Shown here: positions 50,313 through 53,047 of the stretch, one piece after another
Position numbering within the stretch: the first letter of the stretch is position 1
Layout: each line of letters opens with the position of its first letter
Assembly (NCBI RefSeq): GCF_025499465.1
Contig: NZ_JAIMCA010000006.1
Coordinates: forward strand, 186,001-250,000
Reading direction: 5' to 3'
From: Allobosea sp. BH3
Lineage (GTDB): Bacteria > Pseudomonadota > Alphaproteobacteria > Rhizobiales > Beijerinckiaceae
Length of the DNA: 64,000 nt
Position numbers and translations under genes: made by a program
Notes under the pieces: model-generated
Seen by the model: only the letters and a program-made list of their open reading frames with translations
What the model was told of the DNA's origin: nothing
Databases searched by the model: none

Positions 50313-52292
50313 TCAGCGCCCCATGGCGGCTTGCGCGATGCGCTGCGTGGCCTCCGGCCGGCTGCCGGGCGCCAGCAAGCCGGGTCGCGGCACCTGCCGG
50401 ATGGGATCGTTCAGCAGCCGCAAGCCATTGAGGACGACCAGAACCGTGCCGCCTTCGTGCCCGAGGACTGCAAGCGGGAGTGGAAGGTCGAAGAAGGCTG
50501 CGCCGGTCACGAGAAGCAGCATCGCGCCGATCGAGAACATCAGGTTCTGGCGAATGATCCATGCGGCCCTCTGCGAGAGCCGGTGCGCCGCCGCAAGCCG
50601 CCCCATATCCTCGGAGAGAAGGGCCACGTCGGCCGCCTGAAGAGCGACTTCGGAACCGGCCGCGCCCATGGCAATGCCGACGTCGGCACGCGCCAAGGCG
50701 GCTGCGTCGTTCACGCCGTCGCCGACGAACGCGATCTTCTGCCGCGCTGCTGCTTCGGCAACCAGCCGGACCTTGTCCTCGGGCAGCATCTCGGCGTGAA
50801 TCTCATCGTCGCGCAGCCCCAGTTCCGCACCAATCCGCAAGGCTACGGGGCGCCTGTCTCCCGTCATCATGAGGATCGTTGCGACACCGCTTCGCCGCAG
50901 CGCTGCGAGCGCTGCGGCCGACGTCTCGCGCGGCTTGTCGGCTACGCTGACAGCACCAAGGAGACGGTCGCCGCGGCCCAGGTAGACAACGGTCTCGGCG
51001 GCGCTTTGCAATGCCTTCAGAGCCGCGTGATCGATCGCTGCGCCCATGGTTTCGGCCATGCGGCGGTTACCTGCCCAAACAGGGCCGGCATCGTCGTCTC
51101 CGATGATACCCTTGCTGGGTAGCGCCTTTACATTGCGCATCTCGCGGATCGTCAGCCCGCGCTCAGCAACTTCGCGCCGCAGGGCGTCGCCAATGTGATG
51201 TTCGGAATCGGCCTCGAGACTGGCCAGCGTCGAAAGGAAGCCGCGTTCATCGCCATCCAAGGCGACGACATTCGTCACCGTGGCCCGTCCGGCCGTCAAT
51301 GTTCCGGTCTTGTCGAACGCAAAGACCCTGACCCCGGCCAAGGTCTCCAGAGCCGCACCACCCTTGAAGAGGACGCCTCCGCGGGCTGCAGCCGAGAGAG
51401 CGGAGAGAATTGCGGCCGGCACGGAGATGACAACCGCGCAAGGGCTTGCCGCAACCAGCATCGTGGCGGCGCGATAAAGGGCTATGTCCCAGCTGTTTCC
51501 AAGCCAGAGGAAGACACCCAGGGCAGCGACAGACCCGACGAGAACCGCGATCGTGTATCGCTGTCCGAACCATGCGCTGAACCGCTCCGAGGGCGCCTTC
51601 GCCGCCTGCGCCTCCGTGACGAGCGCGATCATCCGGGCAACCGTGCTCTGCCCCAGCGATTTCGTGATGCGCACCTCGAGAACGCCATCGAGATTGACCG
51701 TCGCCTCGAAAAGCGGCTGGCCCGGCGCCTTTCTGACGGGCATCGACTCGCCGGTGATCGTGGATTCGTCCAGCGAGCCCCGGCCGGACGCGACGGTTCC
51801 GTCCGCGGGAACCCGTGACCCGGGTCGTAGGATCACCAGATCGCCGATGCGCAGATCCGTCGCGGGCACCTCCTCCACCCCGCCATCCGGCGCCTTGCGG
51901 ATAGCCGTTTCCGGCCTCAGCGCCATCAAGGCCTCGATGGCACGCCTGGCGCGCCCCATGGCGCGTTCCTCGAGCGTCGTCGACAGGCTGAACAGCGTCA
52001 GCAGGACCGCGCCTTCGAGGGCCGCACCGACGACTGCCGCCGCGAGCGCCGCGACGATCATCAGAAGATCGATATCGAGGATGTGCTCGCGCCAGAGCGC
52101 CCGCAGCGCACGCCAGCCAGCCGGCAGCCCACCAGCCAAGTAGGCGAGCACCGTGCCGAACAGGAACGCCAGTGATCCAGCCGGGCCTCCGACAAGCCAT
52201 TTGCCACACATCGCCAGCGCGAGGCCGATCACCGTCGCCGCGGTGAGAACAACCGGAAGGTTCGATGGAAGACGCGGCAAAAGCCCCTCCAA
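50313..52292 (-). CDS. P1B-4-type heavy-metal-exporting ATPase (Fe/Co/Zn class)
   Basis: This is an inner-membrane metal efflux pump of about 659 residues. The ion-path motif is SPC (residues 283-285, not CPC) and the last helix has HEGGT (612-616); this pair defines the P1B-4 (CoaT/CtpD/Nia-like) group that exports Fe2+, Co2+ or Zn2+. The phosphorylated Asp is Asp327 in DKTGTLT, TGES is at 180-183, and GDGVNDAAAL is at 524-533. No N-terminal HMA domain is present, as usual for this class. The nucleotide-domain motif usually SEHP reads SEHH (363-366). The start is uncertain: TTG at 52292, or a TTG 12 bases later with GGAGGGG just upstream. The upstream Irr-like palindrome points to iron. Confidence 0.9.
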   Translation of the reverse strand: MEGLLPRLPSNLPVVLTAATVIGLALAMCGKWLVGGPAGSLAFLFGTVLAYLAGGLPAGWRALRALWREHILDIDLLMIVAALAAAVVGAALEGAVLLTLFSLSTTLEERAMGRARRAIEALMALRPETAIRKAPDGGVEEVPATDLRIGDLVILRPGSRVPADGTVASGRGSLDESTITGESMPVRKAPGQPLFEATVNLDGVLEVRITKSLGQSTVARMIALVTEAQAAKAPSERFSAWFGQRYTIAVLVGSVAALGVFLWLGNSWDIALYRAATMLVAASPCAVVISVPAAILSALSAAARGGVLFKGGAALETLAGVRVFAFDKTGTLTAGRATVTNVVALDGDERGFLSTLASLEADSEHHIGDALRREVAERGLTIREMRNVKALPSKGIIGDDDAGPVWAGNRRMAETMGAAIDHAALKALQSAAETVVYLGRGDRLLGAVSVADKPRETSAAALAALRRSGVATILMMTGDRRPVALRIGAELGLRDDEIHAEMLPEDKVRLVAEAAARQKIAFVGDGVNDAAALARADVGIAMGAAGSEVALQAADVALLSEDMGRLAAAHRLSQRAAWIIRQNLMFSIGAMLLLVTGAAFFDLPLPLAVLGHEGGTVLVVLNGLRLLNDPIRQVPRPGLLAPGSRPEATQRIAQAAMGR

Positions 52293-52332
52293 TGCCTGAT
52301 CGGCGCCAGGCCGGCGTCAGCGCGTATTTAAT

Positions 52333-52347
52333 TTAGAATCATTCTAA
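52333..52347 (-). promoter_or_regulatory. Iron control element (Irr box-like) upstream of the P1B-4 ATPase
   Basis: TTAGAATCATTCTAA is a perfect 15-bp palindrome centred about 48 bases upstream of the ATPase start. It matches 13 of 14 fixed positions of the rhizobial iron control element TTTAGAAnnnTTCTAAA bound by Irr. The surrounding sequence is AT-rich and promoter-like. This suggests derepression of the exporter when iron (heme) is plentiful. Confidence 0.7.
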
Positions 52348-52402
52348 TGTTTGCATCGAATGTTGTCCAGCGAGCGCGCGCTCCGCGCGTTTGCACTCGA
52401 TC

Positions 52403-52434
52403 GATCAAGAGATTCATGGATCGAGAGATTCATG
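52403..52434. repeat. Two tandem 16-bp units
   Basis: GATCAAGAGATTCATG (52403-52418) is followed directly by GATCGAGAGATTCATG (52419-52434), matching at 15 of 16 positions. It lies in the 250-base gene-free stretch between the Irr-like box and the host-attachment gene. Confidence 0.6.
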
Positions 52435-52600
52435 GCCGCACAGGCAAAACGCCGTCCGGCCGGGCTGCAGGCTTCAAAAAGCATCGTGCCTTGCCGAACT
52501 CGATGCTTTCGCATCCCCCTCGACGTGAATAGGCGTTGTCACCCTGCCGCATCTCGCCGCCGCGGGGGCCATCGCCCTCAGCTGCGGGTTTTCGGACGGC

Positions 52601-53047
52601 CTAGGCCTCGGTCAGCAATCGTTCGAGCTCGCGAACCGGATGCCTCGTCAGGTCCTTGTCCACTTCCGCGATGATCGCGGAACGGAGTCCATCATCAAGA
52701 CTGCGCCGGAGCGCGGAGAGCATGCGCGGCGGCGCGACCAGGACGAAACCGCGCGGTCGCCCGCTGTGATGCAGGTGCTCCACCGCTCGGGCCGTCTCGC
52801 GCGCGAACCGCATCTCGGCCAGGTCATGCCAATCGGCCGTTCCGGTCGCGCTCGTCGGCGCGACGGCGTTCTGCATGCGCCCGGGCCGATCCGTTCCCTG
52901 CTCGGCATTGGGCGGGTTGGCGGGCGCCTCCGTCACCTGCTCGACCTGCAGATTGGGGACAGTCGCGTCGCCTTCGTTGCGAAGGAAGATGGCCTTGCGG
53001 GCATCACAGACGAGAACCCAGGCATCATGGGGAATGCGGAGTTGCAT
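52601..53047 (-). CDS. Host attachment family protein
   Basis: This 148-residue protein belongs to a family named after an Agrobacterium protein required for attachment to host cells. Landmarks are HDAWVLVCDARKAIFLRNEGD at the N-terminus, the middle DWHDLAEMRFARETARAVEHLH, and a late LVAPPRMLSALRRSLDD followed by VDKDLTRHPVRELERLL. The fold is related to the bacterial eRF1/RNase-like group. The attachment role is historical and not proven for most members. GGAGATC precedes the ATG. No signal peptide is seen, so it is cytoplasmic. Confidence 0.87.
   Translation of the reverse strand: MQLRIPHDAWVLVCDARKAIFLRNEGDATVPNLQVEQVTEAPANPPNAEQGTDRPGRMQNAVAPTSATGTADWHDLAEMRFARETARAVEHLHHSGRPRGFVLVAPPRMLSALRRSLDDGLRSAIIAEVDKDLTRHPVRELERLLTEA

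Follow-up and report, generated by a model that had tools for sequence, protein, structure and literature searches.

A gene for a P1B-4-type metal-exporting ATPase in the soil bacterium Allobosea sp. BH3 is preceded by a perfect palindrome that is very likely an operator of Irr, which would place a pump of this class in an iron regulon. We propose that Irr occupies an operator on the -10 region of the ATPase gene when iron, and with it haem, is low, so that transcription of the pump would be blocked together with that of bfr and mbfA. As iron and haem rise, Irr would leave the operator or be degraded and the pump would be made, removing surplus cytosolic Fe(II) beside export by MbfA and storage by Bfr. 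The pump gene would be among the last to be derepressed and would thus serve as an emergency valve for high iron. We give this whole explanation, in which Irr binding, repression, the Fe(II) cargo and the order of derepression are all predicted, a probability of roughly 0.7. Control of the pump by Irr is its best-founded part and is well supported in silico.

The palindrome, TTAGAATCATTCTAA, lies at positions 52333-52347 of the window (the whole 64,000-nucleotide stretch of DNA that was analysed) and has no strand of its own; its 17-bp form spans 52332-52348. Perfect 7-bp arms, TTAGAAT and ATTCTAA, flank a single central base, C, and the position is the one given in the original prediction. 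The rhizobial Irr box has the consensus TTTAGAANNNTTCTAAA (TTTAGAA-N3-TTCTAAA), from which the palindrome departs at one of 14 positions; the claimed agreement at 13 of the 14 fixed positions is therefore right for this consensus. With as many as three mismatches allowed, the palindrome was the single place found in the window, seen on both strands, against 0.09 expected from shuffles, and it is also the sole exact match to TTAGAATNATTCTAA in the 5.25-Mb, 14-contig genome. A scoring matrix was trained on 25 sites of bfr, mbfA and the desulfurase after removal of repeats and contained no pump sites. It gave the palindrome 32.2, compared with 15.7 for the runner-up place in the window and 16.4 for the best place among 40 random windows. 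The palindrome also outscored the genome's own bfr (30.6), mbfA (30.5) and desulfurase (26.7) boxes, all three of which belong to the training set. Because this palindrome also served to find the training sites, the matrix is not a wholly independent test.

Five further places in the genome differ from TTAGAATNATTCTAA by one base. They precede the bacterioferritin gene bfr (22 nt from box to gene), mbfA (14 nt), a cysteine-desulfurase-like gene and two TonB receptor genes, and a looser box with 1 mismatch from the 17-mer consensus stands before one of the two irr genes. MbfA and Bfr both score over NCBIfam cut-offs and the receptors over Pfam cut-offs; the desulfurase passes the Pfam cut-off for class-V aminotransferases, with NifS as its best, sub-cut-off NCBIfam model. 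Across nine Bosea genomes, this one and eight others with a close pump, a search at one mismatch or fewer returned 33 places, which lie before bfr (9), the desulfurase (9), mbfA (7), the pump (4), a VIT1-pump pair (2) and a TonB receptor (2). The reversed pattern matched nowhere in the nine. Family scans covered 3 of the 9 bfr, 2 of the 9 desulfurase, 6 of the 7 mbfA and both receptor genes, the others being recognised by likeness; the mbfA product of genome G012 is short (260 residues) and falls under its cut-off. A second P1B pump, detected in this genome at E 1e-100 on contig C12, is of the CPC type and 41% identical; even with 4 mismatches allowed, its 7-kb stretch holds nothing like the box, which is therefore not a general feature of metal pumps. 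Separately, a second Irr-like box, TTAGAATTTATCTAA (G000:C11:185908-185922), lies 79-93 bases left of the window, with 2 mismatches and a matrix score of 27.6. It sits 15 nt before a cytochrome b561 gene (PF01292) that starts 63 bases left of the window and occupies positions 1-483 at its left edge.

The ATPase gene, on the minus strand at 50313-52280, encodes a protein of 659 residues when counted from the first TTG of its open frame. P1B-4 pumps are marked by SPC in TM4 and HEG(G/S)T in TM6. The SPC (residues 283-285) and HEGGT (612-616) motifs are present as predicted, together with DKTGT and GDGVND; the only cysteines are residues 29 and 285, and there is no CxxC. Pfam recognised E1-E2 ATPase and hydrolase domains alone, the N-terminal heavy-metal-binding domain being absent. 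Among NCBIfam models, TIGR01525, TIGR01512 (the 'cadmium family' subfamily) and the general TIGR01494 were over cut-off, the copper subfamily TIGR01511 was under its own (336 of 397), and the ZntA, CopA and KdpB models were far under. The best match among solved chains was sCoaT (PDB 7qbz), in which SPC aligned and HEGGT aligned to HEGST, although the two are only distantly related (370 bits over 607 query residues). By its motifs, the absence of CxxC and this alignment, the pump is a member of the P1B-4 class, as had been claimed.

Because P1B-4 members move Fe, Co, Zn or Cd, iron export by this pump is a matter of inference. Of the original prediction of an Irr-controlled iron exporter, the Irr half is thus upheld by the motif before Irr targets, the Irr genes and the conserved box, and the iron half stands as inferred from the regulator, the co-regulated genes and a VIT1 partner of the pump in a related group (Shinella, Brucella tritici, Ferrovibrio and others). 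On these grounds we favour iron as the main cargo, with some reserve, and regard the pump as a likely iron exporter. A rather unlikely alternative keeps the Irr operator and makes Co, Zn or Cd the real cargo; Irr would then tie the pump to haem and iron status because these metals come in through the same uptake or poison haem and Fe-S assembly. The broad cargo of the class and the placement in the 'cadmium family' TIGR01512 would suit it. So would the in vitro behaviour reported for sCoaT (PMC8880997), which prefers Zn and Cd and is weakly stimulated by Co, its authors not excluding Co in vivo; we count this preference, with the breadth of the class, against the Fe(II) reading. Irr, however, senses haem and iron (PMC7762939), the genes co-regulated with the pump are iron genes, and in the related group the pump shares its operon with a VIT1 family protein; we count these points in favour of iron.

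Position also bears on how Irr would act. The open frame (50313-52292) has its first start codon at TTG 52292, 40 nt from the palindrome. The true start is probably TTG 52280, 52 nt away, because most relatives keep GGAG followed by TTG; here the putative ribosome binding site GGAGGGG lies at 52284-52290 on the minus strand. The earlier estimate of about 48 bases to the ATPase start was a fair one. A scan of 52240-52640 returned one promoter-like site, where shuffles gave 0.1: a predicted sigma-70-type promoter on the minus strand at 52341-52369, with TGGACA, a 17-nt spacer and TAGAAT (10 of 12). The predicted -10 hexamer falls within the palindrome, a position suggestive of repression when iron is low. 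Next upstream of the pump gene, at 52601-53047 on the minus strand, is a gene for a Host_attach/baeRF_family12 protein.

Repression of the pump by Irr is, in our judgement, likely, and the pump is probably made only when iron is plentiful. In Rhodobacter sphaeroides the mbfA transcript starts within the Irr box, which the authors took as fitting repression (PMC3413700), and we count the -10 inside the box in the present promoter in the same way. The same report describes a small effect of Irr on mbfA and weak binding (~800 nM), which we count against our reading. In Bradyrhizobium japonicum, Irr represses bfr and mbfA and binds these promoters most tightly, with full opening at higher iron (PMC4902296); if the pump gene follows these two, it would be held down at low iron and released late. 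It is expected among the last genes derepressed because its box surpasses every other Irr-type site found in the genome.

The opposite sign, with Irr activating the pump at low iron so that it removes other divalent metals entering through upregulated iron uptake, appears improbable. Irr is described as both activating and repressing, depending on box position (PMC7762939), and we retain activation as a rival because of one precedent. A DAP-seq and gel-shift study of Brucella melitensis found Irr bound before a P-type ATPase gene called zntA, whose expression falls in an irr mutant (PMC10374146); this looks like activation and counts against repression here. That gene resembles ours as a P-type ATPase gene with an Irr box, but it adjoins hemN, its expression falls in the irr mutant, and it is known there as zntA. 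A search for this Irr-bound pump at four more distant P1B loci of B. tritici recognised no hemN and no box within 3 mismatches. Against activation, the Allobosea box lies over the predicted -10, a repressing position, and is similar to those of bfr and mbfA, both repressed by Irr in B. japonicum (PMC4902296).

The genome supplies the regulator that the main reading calls for. It has four Fur-family genes, two of which score over the curated Irr cut-offs NF045677/NF045678 and encode proteins with an HxH and a CP motif each. The other two proteins are Fur-like and Zur-like and pass no cut-off; none of the four passes the PerR cut-off, and likewise none the Fur cut-off. Two Rrf2 genes were also over cut-off. 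The Irr paralogues lie at G000:C1:530598-531131 and C7:564970-565566; by eye, one adjoins bfr and the other fabA/fabB-like genes. The 7-1-7 form is common to Fur-family boxes, which would allow the palindrome to belong to another member of the family, PerR-like, Fur/Mur-like or Zur-like, although we think this very improbable. Fur and/or PerR are the known regulators of iron-exporting P1B-4 pumps (PMC7762939), and Bacillus subtilis PfeT is derepressed through PerR (PMC9993123). Set against these precedents are the cut-offs just given and the occurrence of the motif before established Irr targets; a PerR or Zur box in particular was judged unlikely from the Fur-family gene content and the neighbours of the sites. 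A chance palindrome without function we reject as next to impossible, given the shuffle expectation of 0.09 in the window, the empty reversed-pattern control in nine genomes, the gap in matrix score, and the retention of the box before the pump in several genera.

That retention is patchy. Within the genus, 8 of 36 other genomes carry a close pump (69-85% identical), in nine copies in total. The box is exact upstream of the pump in G012, G016 and G017 (contig C25) and has two mismatches in G018; in G002 and G024 a one-mismatch box precedes a VIT1 gene (PF01988 in G002) that overlaps or adjoins the pump. A box with two mismatches or fewer is thus found at 6 of the 9 other Bosea copies, two of these six being before VIT1. 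In G030 and the second G017 copy, both VIT1-pump pairs, it is reduced to three-mismatch remnants, and G027 (Bosea thiooxidans, also L107) has no box upstream of the pump; these three copies count against the main reading.

A wider sample comprised 80 named loci among the matches listed. At six of these a box stands no more than 300 bp from the pump (one Bosea, two Afipia, Camelimonas and two other Hyphomicrobiales), and at seven one stands ahead of a pump paired with VIT1 (Afipia, Ferrovibrio, two Shinella, Brucella tritici and two more). At the remaining 67 no box with two mismatches or fewer precedes the pump or the VIT1 gene, a VIT1-like gene being upstream at two of them. The VIT1 genes at listed loci were recognised by motif, with Pfam confirming three. 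The samples overlap: L107 corresponds to G027, L170 to G002 and L103 to G012, each pair being identical or nearly so. When the order was sampled evenly, 8 of 396 other genomes had a close pump (E 1e-220); 2 of the 8 have VIT1 and an exact box, and at the other 6 loci the stretch retrieved contains no box at 3 mismatches or fewer. That the box stands wherever this pump occurs is accordingly rejected, and its absence at these 67 listed and 6 order-sample loci counts against the main reading.

Mismatch numbers before the pump at the 80 listed loci are two-peaked, at 0-1 or at least 4; none of 400 letter-shuffled upstream regions reached 2 mismatches and two reached 3, while none of 80 in-gene stretches reached 3. 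In a stack of ten box-bearing pump promoters the commonest base averages 0.93 per box column versus 0.47 per flank column, and in eight box-bearing VIT1-pump promoters 0.95 versus 0.54, a test not wholly independent because possession of the box was the basis on which the promoters were selected. In a quick, unbootstrapped tree the direct boxes fall in one part (11 of 26 rows, and 10 of the 13 rows nearest the Allobosea pump) and those before VIT1 in a different one (9 of 12 rows). Irr was over cut-off in 13 of 13 box-bearing listed genomes versus 5 of 11 box-less ones, hand-picked from the 67.

Comparison of DNA between families points to transfer. The VIT1-pump block of G002 is 94-96% identical to those of Shinella lacus (2,699 bp) and B. 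tritici (2,597 bp), whereas rpoB is 81.5 and 78.5% identical, respectively. With the block so much more alike than rpoB, its exchange between families is very probable. The box itself is found ~75 nt beyond the region of high similarity, in a promoter that has diverged around it, and would thus have been kept under selection or regained. The Allobosea pump and that of G012 have 86% of residues in common as against 97.6% for RpoB, which suggests that this pump group too was exchanged or is fast-evolving. As a tentative generalisation, one we hold with less than even confidence, an iron-export cassette (a P1B-4 pump alone or VIT1 with the pump) may move between families of Alphaproteobacteria, keep or regain an Irr operator in Irr-bearing hosts, and join the resident Irr network as the safety valve that is held most tightly and released last.

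Set beside known systems, a P1B-4 pump with an Irr-type box amounts to known parts in new wiring. The Irr regulon of Bradyrhizobium and its relatives (bfr, mbfA, suf) has the same form of box, and in Allobosea too Irr is present, bfr and mbfA are boxed, and a box lies over the promoter; the difference is a P-type pump as an added target. The Fe(II) exporters PfeT of B. subtilis and FrvA of Listeria share with the pump its class, a predicted role in iron overload and control by the Fur family. Their regulators, however, are reported to be PerR and/or Fur, whereas the Allobosea box is of the type bound by Irr, which senses haem and binds DNA without ligand. Control of the PfeT kind was not found here, the box being Irr-type and no Fur-family protein passing a PerR or Fur cut-off; the pump may work like PfeT but be wired differently. 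MbfA has the same type of operator and the same regulator, and its VIT1 domain recurs in the pump's operon partner in the related group, but MbfA joins a rubrerythrin domain to VIT1, whereas here the exporter is a P-type ATPase. A 2020 review names Fur and/or PerR for iron-exporting P1B-4 pumps where regulators are known and Irr for MbfA (PMC7762939), which fits the earlier remark that an Irr link is rarely described for the class; among the matches listed from the open-access literature, we found no report of an Irr-controlled P1B-4 pump. If our reading is correct, an ATP-driven exporter joins a regulon in which MbfA is the known exporter, and a class so far tied to Fur and PerR comes under a haem-sensing regulator that binds DNA without ligand. 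It would also mean that a horizontally moving exporter stays under its host's iron regulator. The pump box also makes it easy to test whether genes are derepressed in the order of their box strength.

Several loci show further arrangements around the pump. At L164 (2143 and 2192) and L172 (169 and 218), one Afipia and one Ferrovibrio, the VIT1-pump pair has two Irr boxes ahead of it, set 49 bp apart. In L065 (the same as G027 and L107), L064, L106 and L121 the pump lies behind a two-component system. The L065 kinase is QseC-like, with 2CSK_N, and in this organism, B. thiooxidans, the pump follows 53 bp behind the kinase and lacks an Irr box, as though control had been switched; at L064, L106 and L121 the box lies between the two-component system and the pump. 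Some box-less pumps of Paracoccus and roseobacters (L132, L152, L154, L155, L174 and L177) appear by eye, in the neighbourhoods listed, to lie near ApbE-like and large membrane reductase-like genes, which is possibly another link to iron.
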